Below are positions 14,193 to 28,313 of a stretch of DNA of 39,707 nt, piece after piece. A model generated the notes under the pieces. It was given only the letters and a program-made list of their open reading frames with translations. It made no database searches and was not told the DNA's origin. This DNA comes from Conidiobolus coronatus NRRL 28638 (lineage: Eukaryota; Entomophthoromycota; Entomophthoromycetes; Entomophthorales; Conidiobolaceae), in the NCBI GenBank assembly GCA_001566745.1, contig KQ964424.1, positions 188,309 to 228,015 on the forward strand, read 5' to 3'. Each line of letters begins with the position of its first letter. Position 1 is the first letter of the stretch. Both the position numbers and the translations under genes were made by a program.

Positions 14193-14263
14193 GCAATGGT
14201 GGTTTAGTGGTATAATTACCGCCTGCCACGCGGTAGACCGGGGTTCGATTCCCCGCCATTGCA
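14193..14263 (+). tRNA. tRNA-Gly (anticodon GCC)
   Basis: A 71-nt cloverleaf with acceptor GCAATGG/CCATTGC, anticodon stem ACCGC/GCGGT around loop CTGCCAC, T arm CCGGG/CCCGC-like and discriminator A14263. There is no intron. A run of T at about 14274-14278 is the likely polymerase III terminator. Confidence 0.97.
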
Positions 14264-16494: not shown

Positions 16495-16634
16495 ATCCTT
16501 GTGCTAGGGTATATCCTCATCTGTGAAGTATCTACTGAGATAGGATTATTGCTGGTTGAAAACTAAACCCAATACCCCACGATAATTAATTCCTAGTGAA
16601 TTAATGTCGTAATTTTTGCAATCCTTTAGGGATA
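16495..16634 (+). ncRNA. U4 spliceosomal snRNA
   Basis: About 140 nt; human U4 is about 145 and yeast 160. The 5' end ATCCTTGTGCTAGGG is nearly that of yeast U4 and can form stem II with U6 (GCGCAAGGAU). A 5' stem-loop with a kink-turn pattern (TGTGA opposite CTGAGA) follows, the binding site of Snu13/15.5K. Next come GATTATTGCTGGTTGAAAAC, which provides stem I, and AACCCAATACCCC, matching vertebrate U4. The central hairpin pairs ACGATAATTAATTC with GAATTAATGTCGT. AATTTTTG is the Sm site and ATCCTTTAGGGAT the 3' terminal hairpin. U4 chaperones U6 in the tri-snRNP and leaves during activation. The pairing regions match major U4 rather than U4atac. The 3' end is approximate. Confidence 0.93.
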
Positions 16635-17655: not shown

Positions 17656-17737
17656 GCTACTATGGCCGAGTGGTCTAAGGCGGGTGACTTAAGATCCCCT
17701 CTCGAAAGAGGCGTAGGTTCGAACCCTACTGGTAGCA
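17656..17737 (+). tRNA. tRNA-Leu (anticodon TAA)
   Basis: An 82-nt class II tRNA. Acceptor GCTACTA/TGGTAGC, D arm GCC/GGC, T arm GTAGG/CCTAC around TTCGAAC, discriminator A17737 and a variable arm CTC-GAAA-GAG. The anticodon loop CTTAAGA gives TAA. The anticodon stem GGTGA/TCCCC contains one T-C mismatch in its middle (see findings). T-rich terminator at 17742-17748. Confidence 0.93.
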
Positions 17738-19659: not shown

Positions 19660-20465
19660 ATGGTAAAAATATTCAAACATATAACTCAATACAAATAATA
19701 TTAATTATCTTGTTATTTAATCTATATAGTCTGACGTTGCTTTATCCTGTAAAATCCCCACTGAAGTTATTCAAGCTGCTAGAAAGTTCCGCTTTTTAAA
19801 GAATCCTGGCCATTATTCTGGCTTAATTTGTAATTCACAGCTTAATTTGTTTACTCTTTAATTTTTTATATCTAATATGTTTTATTATAGTAAAAATTAA
19901 CAAGGAAACTAGCACTGTTGAAGTTGATGAAAATTTGATTGATTGCGATTTAGAAGAAATAATTGAAGAGTTACCCGATGACGCTCCTAGATATCCTTTT
20001 ATATTTTAAACTATTTATTATATCTTTAGATATTCATTATTTATTTTATTCCTTAATTCTTAACCTTTGTTTTTACATATGTATTATTAAGTTATAAGGT
20101 ATATAATTTTTTATTTTTAATAATATTTTGATCTAACTATTTAAATAGTACGAAAGAGAAGATGGTATTACTCAATATCCTTTAATCTTTTTATATTATA
20201 TCCCTGAAGCCGGTATTAATATATCTAAATTTATCCAAAATTAGATGAATTAATAGTTATTTAGCCTCTCATTCTTTAAATATGTTATATGCCAGTACTC
20301 AAAATAACTTACAAAAAGAAATTGATATGAGTCGTGTAATTAATTAGATTGTCATCCTTTATAATAATTATTCTAAATTTTAAATATTATTTCTAGGTCT
20401 TTGAAATTCGCGATTTAGAAGAATTGGATGAAGAATGGATCAAGTCAAGATTATCAAAGTTCTAG
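19660..20465 (+). CDS. GMF1: Glia maturation factor homologue (Gmf1/Aim7), ADF-H domain
   Basis: Seven exons: 19660-19662 (ATG only), 19730-19829, 19891-19990, 20077-20098, 20149-20212, 20265-20335 and 20397-20465. The frame encodes 142 residues, the exact length of human GMFB. It aligns along its whole length: ARKFRFLKNPG, ILKINKE, EELPDDAPRYVLLSYKYERE, DGITQYPLIF, LNMLYASTQNNL and the final VFEIRDLEELDEEWIKSRL. GMF binds Arp2/3 complex and removes actin branches; it does not sever filaments like cofilin. Five introns are short GT-AG (50-67 nt). The third, 19991-20076, begins ATATCCTTTT and ends AC and is described separately. Exon 4 is a 22-nt microexon. The gene is tail-to-tail with the XMAP215 gene. 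Confidence 0.96.
19991..20076 (+). other. U12-type (minor spliceosome) AT-AC intron in GMF
   Basis: The 86-nt intron begins ATATCCTTTT, the canonical U12-type 5' splice site, and ends TTTTTAC. A branch-site match TTCTTAAC at 20057-20064 puts its last A 13 nt from the 3' end, in the 10-14 nt window typical of U12 introns. Excision restores the frame (AG|A, phase 2) and produces APRYVLLSYKYERE, which matches human QPRFIVYSYKYQHDD without a gap. No GT donor in the segment gives an equivalent join. Confidence 0.93.
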
Positions 20466-20812: not shown

Positions 20813-23800
20813 CTAGGTCTGGGCGTTTACCATTGATTTCCTTTTAATACTTCTTCTGCGAGTCTCAATTAAGCGATTAGAAAGTACAAGTACCAAATTA
20901 TGTTGGTTATGATCTTCAATTACTCCAAATTTAGTAAAGAAGTCATTCTTTAATACTTGTAATAAATCATAAATTACAGTTTTAACCATTCTATAAACTT
21001 CTTTAAACTCAGGATAACCATTAGGGTTAATCAAGTAGTCACGAGGGACTCCGATTAATAAAGTGTTGATATCATATAATAATACTTGAGGATCTAATTC
21101 TTGAGAAGCAAGCTTTGGACCAATTGATCTATTTAATTTAGCAATACACTTACAAATCATTTCTGATAATGATAGCATGCTATGCTCTGATAATTCAACT
21201 TCCATTATGTGGTTAGGGTCGTAGAGTTGCTGTAATAAAGTGAACATACAACGGAAAGCGCTATTTGGACAACAGTGATCGAGAATTCTAACCATTAAAA
21301 TATTTAATGCTCTAGAGAATCCTACAAAGGTTTCTGAGCTGCTAGTCTTTGAAATTTCCAACATTATAAGAATTTGATTAATTAAGTCATGTAATGCTGC
21401 TTCGTCAATGTTACGTGCAAGTTCAGAAGTTGAAAAGATTTGTACCAAAGAATTAACTAAATATTTGATTAATCTAGCGAAATGGGGAGAGTCTTCAGGG
21501 ATTGGGTTGGTATTCAAAGAGCGCACTTTCTTTGAAATAGCAATCACAATATTATTTAAATATGGTGAAATTACTTCATACCCACCTGAGATTTGACTTT
21601 CAAACTCTCTTAATCCTTCCAAACTTAAAGATATGTCTGGATCAGAAATTTGATCTCCTAGGCGCTCCATTACAGAGTTTGTAGGTATAAGTCCATATCT
21701 ATCCTGTTGTTTTGAATGACTGTTGCTGTATGGTGAAAGAGCAGGGATATTTGATTGGCCGTTGTTAGGTACTTGAGGAAGATCCAATCTACTCATTTCT
21801 AAGCTGATAGAGTTGTTAGAATGATCAGTAGGTGGGATAGATTTGGGGATTCCTGGTGAAGCCAATGGAGGTACGAAAGATGTTCTATTTCTAGGACTGG
21901 GTTGAGGAGGAATAGTAGTGTGCGCCATAATAGGAGAATATTCAGGATATTCTGATCTTAGAGGTGATTGAATAGGAGAGATGGATGTAGGTGTTGCGTT
22001 GGGTAAAGGTGGTGAAATATGGTCTTGTTGAACTGAGTCTTTTCTTTGGAAGGAGAATAAGTGTGTCCCTGTGTTTTCAGGAAGTTTTGATGGCTCAACG
22101 CTAGGAGTAACATTAGGCGTGATTCTTTTAAATCTTTCATCTAAATATGATTTTTCTTTCTCACCAATTCTGCCTAAATACTTATATACCGCATCTCCGG
22201 TAAGAATATAGACTTCAGCGATAACGTTAATTGCACCAGTTCTTACACCAGCATCTCTATCTGCGATGTGCTTAGCAATAATGGGCATTGACTTTGATGG
22301 ATTGCATACTGAAACATCATTTTGCTTAATTAGTTTGGCAAGCTCATCAAGACATTCAGCTCTAACTTTAGCATTCTTTGATTTCAAGCCGATATCCATT
22401 ATTTGAACAAAAGATTTATTCAATGGATACAGCGAGTAAATTTGTTTGAATGTTGCGCTAACTTTAGCTTTCATAGCTTCTTTACTGTCACCCATTTTGC
22501 TAATAATAGCCGGGAAAAAGATTGAAGCTTCGTTATCAGGAAGAGAGTATCCAGTTGAAGAGAGAAGCTGTAATAGGCCTTCCATTGTTTCTAAGCATCT
22601 AAAGCATAAGGTGGTGGCTGAATCGTGGATTCTAATTGTCAGATATTTTATGATTAAATCAGAAGCAAATAATACACGATCGACTAATTCGTTATACTCA
22701 ATTTGATATTTGTCAAGACTATCGTATTCAGGGCAGGTGATAATATCGTATAGAGTATTAACTGCGCTCATATACTCTTTATCTTTGTAATGATCAGTGC
22801 TAAACATTAATTTCCTAAGCTCAGAGCTGAAAGAGTTAGCAGATTGTTCTTGAACTGAAGCTAATACATCAGAAGGAACAGAGTCAAATATCCACCTAGC
22901 TGGCTTTTCTCTAGCTAATCTTTGATCTTTAGATCTGGAATCAGTTTGTAAAATTGGGAATGCAGGGGCAGATGGAGGTGCATTAGAGTTTGATCTCGAT
23001 AAGTTGCTAGATGTGGCAGTAGATGGGCGCTTTCCTAATAAAGGTGCCTTCTTTTTAGCATTTACATCTGCTGCAGAATCAGGGCGGGATGGTGGTCCAG
23101 ACGAGAGCTGTCTGCCGCCTAAAGCAGAAGGTGGTCTTAAAGTACTGGACGCAGGTTTTCCACCAACGCTTGGCGAAGGCCCTTCAGATCTCAAACTATC
23201 AATTAGTGGCATAACGCTTTGCAATGAAGCACCTTTAAGAGAGCTTGCCTTTTCTTTAATAGGTGCGAATCCAACACTTTGAACAACAAATTTCAAGCAA
23301 GATTGAGCTTGTTTCCTTACATCAGAATTTTTATCTTGTAAGCAAGATATTAAAGGTGACACAAGAGGAGATAAGTCAGGAAGCTTATCCTTAGCTAATT
23401 CTAGATTATCGGCTAACCATTTGCTAAGATCTTTTCTTTGAACTGAGTTTTCTGGAACCAAAGCTGCTCCAACTCCAGGTAACATTGGCTCTAGGTCGTT
23501 AGCTTCTTTAATAGATGTTAAACTATTAAAAGCAGCAGTTCTAACTTGTATTTTTTGATCACTTAAGCATCCAGCAACAGGTCCAACTAAAGTTTTACAG
23601 TATTTATCAAAAGGTTTGCCCATTGCTTTGGCAGTTTCGCCAATGAGGTCTAGTGCATTGATGACCAAGTTTTTGTTTGCATCTGCAAGACGGGCTTTTA
23701 AGAGCGTTGGAAGTTCACCTAAAATACTATCAGTAAAAGAACTATAACTAGTTATTTTATATAATCTATTACCTAAGTTTGGCTTAATTCTGTTATTTGC

Positions 23801-26800
23801 AGAGCCTAGAATTGAGCTAACGGCATCCAAACCTTCTTTACGAACTTTCCAATTAGCATTATTCAGCTGTTCAGCAAGCTTTCCGTTAATTTGTGGTGAT
23901 ATATCGACTCTAGGGAACAAATCATCAAGCACATCATGCTCAGGAGCACCAGAGTCATCTCCTGCACCACTTGTAGCTGGAGGAGGGGGAGGAGCTCCTC
24001 TTGTTGGTGCTTCTGGAGTACGGCTTGAAACTTTTTCAAACTCTTTATCAATGTTGCTTAATAGATTTGGATTTAAATCTTCTACCGATTTTCTAAGTGC
24101 TGTATTATAGAGTTAGATTTGCTATTAAATATAACTGAAAATTAATTACCTGGGCCAATATAAACTCTGAGTTCAGCTAATAGTTGGGTAGCATTGGTGC
24201 GTACTGTAACATTGGATGACCCAAGTAAAGTTTTGATGAAATCAACAAGTAAAGGCGTGCTTAATCCTGAAATACCAAATTCAATTAGAGTATTTTTCAT
24301 CCAAGATAAAGCATCTGCTTGAATTTTTGGTGCTTTTTGCGCTTTAATTGGTGCATATACTAAAAAATTTAATTAATTTAAATTGATTATATATATTTTA
24401 AAATAATTACCTTGAGAAAATACAAATTGCAAAGAAGTGGCTTCAGCAAATGCAACAAGAGCTTCTCCAGCAGGGCCTTTTAATTTGATATCACCAAGTT
24501 TATCAGCAAGAACTAAAGATTGTTAGATTAAAATAAAAATATATAAAGACTATGTTACTTGGAATGGCTAATGATGCGGCACCAGCAGAAAAAGAAGGTA
24601 TCCTTTCTGCCAAAAGAGCAAAGATAGAATATACTTTGGAAGTTACCTAAATTATTTGTTAGTATTAATTATTTTATATCTAAGTCATATAACTTACTTG
24701 GAAATTACTTTCTTTTGGACCTGGTTTTTTAATCATTTGTCTAACAACGAGTTCGGCTTGAACATCATCTGGATTTTGGCCATTTATATGATCATAGATG
24801 GATTCAATAGCTATATAAGATGTTAGGTTTAGAAAACCTTAAATTATATTAATAAATACCTGCTAAACGTGTTTTCCATACAGAGTTACTTAAATCGGTT
24901 ATTAAATTAGAAGGTATTTGGTCTTCAACTAGCCCATCTATGTCATCTTGGTTATACTTGAAAGATATTTTAAACTCTTTTGTTGATTTAGAAGCTGTTG
25001 GCTTAGATCCTGCAGGAGTGGATGAGGTAGGTTTCTAGGGCTTCATTAGTAAATGTGAGAATGTTTGGGTATAAATAATTACCTTTATAGGTGGCTTAGA
25101 TGAGGATAATTTGGGAGGCGCTTTTGCTGCTGCTGGTGGCTTGGGAGCTTCAGCGGCAGGTTTTGCTGATCCACTTGAAAGAGTAGGTTTCTTAGTAGAA
25201 GAAAGAACAGGTGGTTTCTAGATTTAAGTACAAACACGTTAATAAATTAATTAATAATTGATATTATATGAATACCTTTATCTTAGGAGCTGCACTAGGT
25301 GCGGAAGCTGGTGGTGGCTTTGAAACAGGGGCTGATGCTTTGAGAGAAACTGTAGCCTTTTCTTTATATTCGTCAATTTTAGCGGTTTTCTTTGCATCAG
25401 TTTTTTCTAAAAACGGTTTGATAAATTTATCACCAACTAGCTTAATTAAAGTTCCGATAGCTTCAGCAGCACTTTCTCTAACACCAGTATCAGCGTCATC
25501 AAGACCTTTAAATAGAGGGGTGCTTAAAGCTTTAATCTCTGGTGTAGATGGTGGTTGAGAAGTTATACTTGAAAGGATTCTTGTAGCCCATTTTAGAGTT
25601 TCAGCTTTGACATTAGGATTTTTATGACCAGATCCAGTGGAAATATCTTCAATTAAGTCAGATATGGTAACGCTTTTAGAAACTGCGTCAAGAGTTTTCC
25701 TCAATGGCTCTAAAACAGTAATCTTCTTTTCTTTAAGTTTTTCAATGAGAGGTGGAACTACAGTTGATTTATGTTGGCTAAAATCTTTTCTAAGACCTGT
25801 GGCAATTAATCCAATACAAGTAATACAAAGAGCTCCAACATTGATATTAGCATCTGAAATTTTCTAAATTTAAAGTTAGGTTATTTATTTTTAAATTATT
25901 ATTCCACTTACTCCTGCTAATGTAGAAATAAGCTCTCCACAATTTCCATTATCTTTTAGCTTTGGCGTATCTAAGCCTGCTTTTAGTGGCTCTAAAGCTT
26001 CCACTCTTTCTTTCCATTTAGACGATGCCTTTATAAAGTGTTAGTTAAAATTAATATACACAAGTTTATTAGTTACTATTAGATTGTAGAAGTCTTTAGG
26101 TAATTTTGTCATAATATCTACAGGTTCAGCAAAGTCATATGGATCAACATCAACTGGCTCTTCTTCAAGTTCATTATATTCATTATCTTCTATAACATAA
26201 ATTAGTTGTTTAATTAGTATATCTAAAAATTGACTATTTACCATTTGTTTCATATTCATCCATAGGTGGAGGAGCAGCTGCAGCAATAGCTTGTTGTGAT
26301 CTTAATAGTCTAGAAGCAGATGGTCTTTCGGAAGGCAGTTTATCGAACTCTGCTTGTAAATCTTTAAGCTAATTGAAAATTAATAAACTTGTTTAAATAT
26401 TCGAAGATTTATATATACTTGAACTGGCTTTAAATCTTTAAGAGAAGGCTCTACAGCTTTTCCAAGCCATTTATATAATTCTACTGTGAGTTGTGTTGCC
26501 TAAATCATATTTAAATAAATGCGCTAGGTTTAATTATAAGCTGCTTACTTCTGCTCTCACATTTTTATCTGAGTGGCCAAACATTTTTGCTAATTGCTTT
26601 AATAAAGGCTTAGGATCTACCGTTTTGCACCCGAATTGCCTAAAAAGTCAAATATTAACAATAGCTTATCTTGATAATTTTTATATATTTACTTGACGAT
26701 TTCTTTGAGCGCGTTTACAACCCCTGTAACTGCTTTGGCTAGTTTATGGCTTAATCCAGGAATTAATGCATCCTAATTTTAATTTTATATATTAGTTTTT

Positions 26801-28239: not shown

Positions 28240-28313
28240 TGCTCCCAACAGGGATCGAACCTGTGACCTTGGCGTTATTAGCACCACGCTCTAACCAACT
28301 GAGCTATGGGAGC
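28240..28313 (-). tRNA. tRNA-Ile (anticodon AAT)
   Basis: A 74-nt cloverleaf on the minus strand with acceptor GCTCCCA/TGGGAGC, D arm GCTC/GAGC, anticodon loop giving AAT (GGTGCTAATAACGCC, as in most eukaryotic tRNA-Ile) and T arm CACAG/CTGTT-like. The discriminator base corresponds to T28240. Six T on the minus strand (28234-28239) form the terminator. There is no intron. Confidence 0.97.

Follow-up and report, generated by a model that had tools for sequence, protein, structure and literature searches.

How a fungal cell would remove an intron that begins with AT and ends with AC is the question raised by the glia maturation factor (GMF) gene of Conidiobolus coronatus NRRL 28638, in which one such segment is found together with five GT-AG introns. 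The gene lies in a stretch of 39,707 nucleotides (G000:C7:188309-228015), hereafter called the window. A sequence-only reading of this stretch had assigned the segment to the U12 type, the class removed by the minor spliceosome, and such an intron in GMF would point to a minor spliceosome in C. coronatus.

Spliced as listed in Table 1, the gene encodes the 142-residue protein that had been predicted, and a protein search returned the deposited "glia maturation factor beta [Conidiobolus coronatus NRRL 28638]" at 100% identity over the full length. The spliced product carries a Cofilin_ADF domain (Pfam, E=6.1e-28) and its best solved relatives are GMF structures (E down to 4.3e-29), thus it is a member of the glia maturation factor (ADF-homology) family, and its gene is one that regulates actin. 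Elsewhere in the window, a major U4 RNA gene is located about 3.0 kb upstream of GMF (16495-16631, plus strand, 98.2 bits, E=3.4e-21), four tRNA genes score over the Rfam cut-off (333-405, 14193-14263, 17656-17737 (+) and 28240-28313 (-)), and two open frames match CLASP/XMAP215 TOG domains (20816-24112 and 25267-25863 (-)), perhaps representing one microtubule-regulator gene split by introns.

Table 1. Positions of the GMF gene parts in the window, and of the sister introns on their own contigs.
Feature	Position	Strand	Remarks
GMF (glia maturation factor) gene	19660..20465	+	7 exons from the ATG to the stop; encodes 142 residues
GMF exon 1	19660..19662	+	ATG only
GMF intron 1	19663..19729	+	GT-AG, 67 nt
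GMF exon 2	19730..19829	+	
GMF intron 2	19830..19890	+	GT-AG, 61 nt
GMF exon 3	19891..19990	+	ends ...GCTCCTAG, phase 2, codon AG/A
GMF intron 3	19991..20076	+	AT-AC, 86 nt, assigned to the U12 type (enumerated joins; sister introns)
5' splice site of GMF intron 3, ATATCCTTTT	19991..20000	+	exact match to U12-type consensus
Alternative branch-like site in GMF intron 3, TCCTTAAT	20050..20057	+	second A 20 nt from intron end
Likely branch site of GMF intron 3, TTCTTAAC	20057..20064	+	second A at 20063, 13 nt to intron end
GMF exon 4	20077..20098	+	microexon, 22 nt, flanked by U12-type and U2-type introns
GMF intron 4	20099..20148	+	GT-AG (U2-type), 50 nt
GMF exon 5	20149..20212	+	
GMF intron 5	20213..20264	+	GT-AG, 52 nt
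GMF exon 6	20265..20335	+	
GMF intron 6	20336..20396	+	GT-AG, 61 nt
GMF exon 7	20397..20465	+	includes stop codon
GMF predicted exon 3/exon 4 join			...GCTCCTAG to ATATGTATT
FHIT U12-type intron	L058, C5:301458-301540	minus	GT-AG, 83 nt
FHIT 5-nt exon region	L058 reverse-complement positions 546-683 (G000:C5:301458-301595)	minus	
FHIT predicted join			...TTAGTACC-TGGAC-ATGTATT
SRR1 U12-type intron	L080, C13:180482-180557	minus	AT-AC, 76 nt
PPCS/CAB2 U12-type intron	L130, C77:77554-77629	minus	AT-AC, 76 nt
Candidate U12-type intron (C104 gene)	L139/L154, C104:11387-11460	minus	AT-AC, 74 nt

Re-reading of the sequence gave the 86-nt AT-AC intron exactly as first described, opening with ATATCCTTTT, which agrees with RTATCCTT, and closing with TTCTTAACCTTTGTTTTTAC. 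The branch site of a U12-type intron resembles TTCCTTRAY and is positioned about 10–14 nt from the 3' end. The proposed TTCTTAAC differs from this motif by one C to T change and, counted after its second A, stands at the claimed 13 nt from the end. The remaining geometry was also read correctly: intron 3 is longer than the five GT-AG introns of the gene (50–67 nt), and it is followed by a 22-nt microexon and then by a normal GT-AG intron. The two-intron and one-intron joins of the segment were enumerated, of which 2406 leave at least 100 residues, and each was scored by averaging its alignment scores against human GMF and P0002, a JGI protein. The top score of 291.8 is common to five placements of the intron (AT-AC, TA-CA, AT-AT, TC-TA and CC-AT) that give an identical mRNA, because ATAT is present at both boundaries, and AT-AC is the sole one of the five with termini known for spliceosomal introns, as described in the main text of Larue et al. 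2023 (PMC10639083). Among the enumerated joins the best GC-AG and GT-AG solutions reach 234.8 and 229.2, respectively, both at the cost of at least 10 residues of the conserved GMF segment, and retention of the intron leads to a stop after fewer than 100 residues. The earlier statement that a single join rebuilds the protein thus holds against GT-AG and GC-AG joins, with the refinement that the same mRNA is reached from five placements. GMF intron 3 therefore has AT-AC termini, and its removal restores the conserved protein.

Sister introns were searched for in 17,500,425 bases (17.5 Mb) on 186 contigs, about 44% of the size of the published NRRL 28638 assembly, which is described as a draft of 39.9 Mb in 1050 scaffolds (PMC12387763). 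The same paper names a C. coronatus assembly of 44.2 Mb (PRJNA1264516). RTATCCTTT is found 274 times in this sequence versus 161 times for the reversed word. We inspected 143 distinct RTATCCTTT sites out of at least 274, namely 100 of the 274, 40 further ATATCCTTTT places (which brings in all 55 known) and, by difference, 3 in flanks; by type these are 55 ATATCCTTTT, 46 ATATCCTTT[ACG] and 42 GTATCCTTT. Since few of the sites are introns and 53 of the 143 are surrounded by an open frame over about 80 codons, codon usage is likely behind the excess over the reversed word. TCCTTAAY occurs 30–150 nt downstream of 5 of the 142 scorable sites where 0.8 are expected (Poisson P about 0.0014, calculated without using frame, termini or spacing), and the mirrored stretches contain 1 (upstream) and 0 and 1 (opposite strand); GMF is counted here via its TCCTTAAT located 20 nt from the end and not via TTCTTAAC. 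Enrichment is less clear for YTTAAC (23 vs 13, 18 and 16 in the mirrored stretches) and TCCTTRAY (5 vs 2, 0 and 1), TTCCTTAA is not clearly enriched (3 vs 2, 1 and 1), and the reversed word gave 1 vs 2, 1 and 0.

When TCCTTAAT is combined with a well-spaced AC or AG end, 5 of the 143 sites remain, lying in the genes for GMF, FHIT, SRR1, PPCS/CAB2 and a gene on contig C104. In a relaxed scan of 309 kb (overlapping loci counted) the same five introns took the top 5 of 17 places, the scan halting at an earlier AC in the case of GMF. Our first intron patterns allowed only branch sites with a final C and could have caught, among the five, only GMF through its TTCTTAAC: RTATCCTTT-N30-60-YTTAAC gave 6 matches versus 4 in the reversed control, of which only GMF resembled an intron within a gene, and the pattern requiring TCCTTAAC gave 0 matches in the 17.5 Mb versus 1 in the control. 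Four further places with U12-like words (L015, L016, L008 and L001:613) have no visible coding context and were rejected as U12-type introns.

Three of the sisters, in FHIT, SRR1 and PPCS, are well supported, and the C104 intron is a candidate. The joined FHIT product of 141 aa aligns to FHIT structures, and a HIT-like protein deposited for C. coronatus is 100% identical to it; for FHIT as for GMF, this agreement is indirect evidence that the junction is used. In SRR1 the junction at residue 153 falls inside the domain match (residues 22–179, E=2.7e-39), and in PPCS the junction at residue 74 falls inside an alignment to Cab2 (structure 6ai8) that covers residues 3–111 (E=6.8e-33). Removal of the C104 candidate keeps the reading frame. 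Its gene gave no useful Pfam match and no known family. Exportin-4 matched weakly at first (E=0.023), but a longer part of the gene gave no match at E up to 1, and this identity was discarded. All four sisters share the branch site TCCTTAAT, whose second A is 14 (FHIT), 12 (SRR1), 13 (PPCS/CAB2) and 11 nt (C104) from the 3' end, and the claimed GMF branch site TTCTTAAC fits this spacing because its 13 nt lies within their range of 11–14 nt.

These sisters bear on two other explanations of the GMF segment. An AT-AC intron of the U2 type, spliced by the major spliceosome, is expected to open with a U2-type 5' splice site and to lack a U12-type branch site. GMF intron 3 has instead ATATCCTTTT at its 5' end and a U12-type branch site at the right distance, and the sisters include a GT-AG intron, in FHIT, that carries the same signals; we therefore give almost no credence to a U2-type intron, even though AT-AC termini alone are no proof of the U12 type and "other AT-AC introns" are counted apart in the text of PMC2846911. 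The other explanation, an assembly or sequencing artefact in which errors changed the ends of a GT-AG intron or in which there is no intron at all, might be suggested by the draft state of the assembly (1050 scaffolds; PMC12387763). It is just as hard to believe, since the deposited protein uses the AT-AC-spliced mRNA and errors would not yield the same signals in separate genes. Taken together, the splice sites, the branch site, the rebuilt protein with its identity to the deposited one, and the sister introns with the same signals elsewhere in the genome support the U12-type assignment, and GMF 19991–20076 is almost certainly a minor intron.

The unusual part of the finding is the presence of very small exons between U12-type and U2-type introns, 22 nt in GMF and 5 nt in FHIT. 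In FHIT, the order is a U2-type GT-AG intron (50 nt), the exon TGGAC (5 nt) and the U12-type GT-AG intron (83 nt). The five nucleotides complete a Pro-Gly-His common to FHIT structures, and the deposited gene model must include them because the deposited protein has those residues; this model presumably rests on transcripts. A tiny exon beside a minor intron in two of the five genes may be a matter of chance. From the geometry, two spliceosomes would act in turn beside these exons. In GMF, U11 and then U6atac would read ATATCCTT, and U12 would base-pair with the branch site, leaving an A bulged out. Against the U12 word, TCCTTAAT and TTCTTAAC each form 7 of 7 pairs, the odd base by a G-U wobble. 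The U2-type intron 22 nt downstream would be removed separately, and probably in turn, since a 22-nt exon is smaller than either machine.

From the minor spliceosome, U12, U6atac, ZCRB1, RNPC3 and the U11-48K zinc finger were searched for in the same 17.5 Mb, about 44% of the genome. Neither the U12 family (Rfam RF00007) nor the U6atac family (Rfam RF00619) gave a match there, and they gave none in the control genomes either, so these searches do not show absence; the same search method recovered the major U4. With up to 3 mismatches, a U6atac 20-mer gave 0 matches in the 17.5 Mb (control 0), and a U12 20-mer gave 2 versus 4 in the reversed control, neither locus scoring as U12. A second U4 match on contig C56 (17.1 bits, cut-off 46) was considered as U4atac and rejected, as its best score is as U4 and lies below the cut-off. 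On the protein side, there were 13 matches to the ZCRB1 profile in the 17.5 Mb and 5 to the RNPC3 C-terminal RRM, with overlapping places. The three loci inspected (L035, L019 and L022) were judged by eye to be ordinary RRM proteins, and the best RNPC3 match lies in a 635-aa frame on contig C1 that contains several RRM matches. The zf-U11-48K search gave one match, below cut-off. No gene for 31K (ZCRB1), 65K (RNPC3) or the 48K zinc finger was found in the sequence searched. A search with the human ZCRB1 protein is uninformative on fungi, the species shown among its best 120 of 515 matches being vertebrates.

It is from this result that a relic draws its support, in which the major spliceosome would have taken over an intron of U12-type origin after loss of the minor one, as the minor snRNAs and proteins sought were not found in the 17.5 Mb. 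However, U12-type signals should decay without a machine to read them, and in five introns the 5' splice site still matches the U12 type exactly and is accompanied by a U12-type branch site 11–14 nt from the end; moreover, failure to find a gene says little when about 44% of the published genome size was searched. We regard the relic as very unlikely, and in our view the intact signals of several introns count for more than the failure to find these genes, which speaks weakly against a minor spliceosome. A remodelled minor spliceosome for the few U12-type introns that remain, with RNAs or proteins diverged beyond recognition or replaced by parts of the major spliceosome, and taking turns with the major one beside the 22- and 5-nt exons, is improbable as well, if slightly less so. 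With high confidence, then, we favour the view that GMF 19991–20076 is a true AT-AC intron of the U12 type, and that C. coronatus presumably retains a minor spliceosome to remove it and a small set of others.

The GMF intron resembles known U12-type AT-AC introns in its 5' splice site, branch site, branch-to-end distance and termini, and in being single among the U2-type introns of its gene. C. coronatus departs from the known examples in the final T of the branch site TCCTTAAT found in the four sisters and in the small size of the adjoining exon in GMF and FHIT. The sequence-only reading had placed minor introns in only some early-diverging fungi, in agreement with the main text of Larue et al. 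2023 (PMC10639083), which gives 249 for Basidiobolus meristosporus (Zoopagomycota) and 205 for Rhizophagus irregularis. Both species are, like C. coronatus, early-diverging fungi with U12-type introns, and C. coronatus probably has far fewer, with four well supported and one candidate in a partial count over 143 of at least 274 sites and about 44% of the genome. Low numbers and both types of termini, AT-AC and GT-AG, are also described for Phycomyces (about 20) and Rhizopus (about 4), as in C. coronatus but in a different lineage; the same texts report minor introns in some chytrid relatives and nothing convincing for Ascomycota and Basidiomycota (PMC10639083, PMC2846911). The word Conidiobolus is absent from the main text of PMC10639083, whose supplements may include the species, and no description of minor introns in Conidiobolus was found by titles and abstract starts among the matches listed.

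The kind of intron is therefore already known and published for other early-diverging fungi, and it is found here in a lineage where it seems to be scarce. The present set provides concrete minor introns, with genes and positions, for an entomophthoralean fungus. A genome with seemingly few minor introns is a good setting in which to ask why a cell maintains an entire second spliceosome for so few introns, and the 5-nt exon of FHIT, set between a U2-type and a U12-type intron, lends itself naturally to testing whether the two spliceosomes have to act sequentially and in what order.
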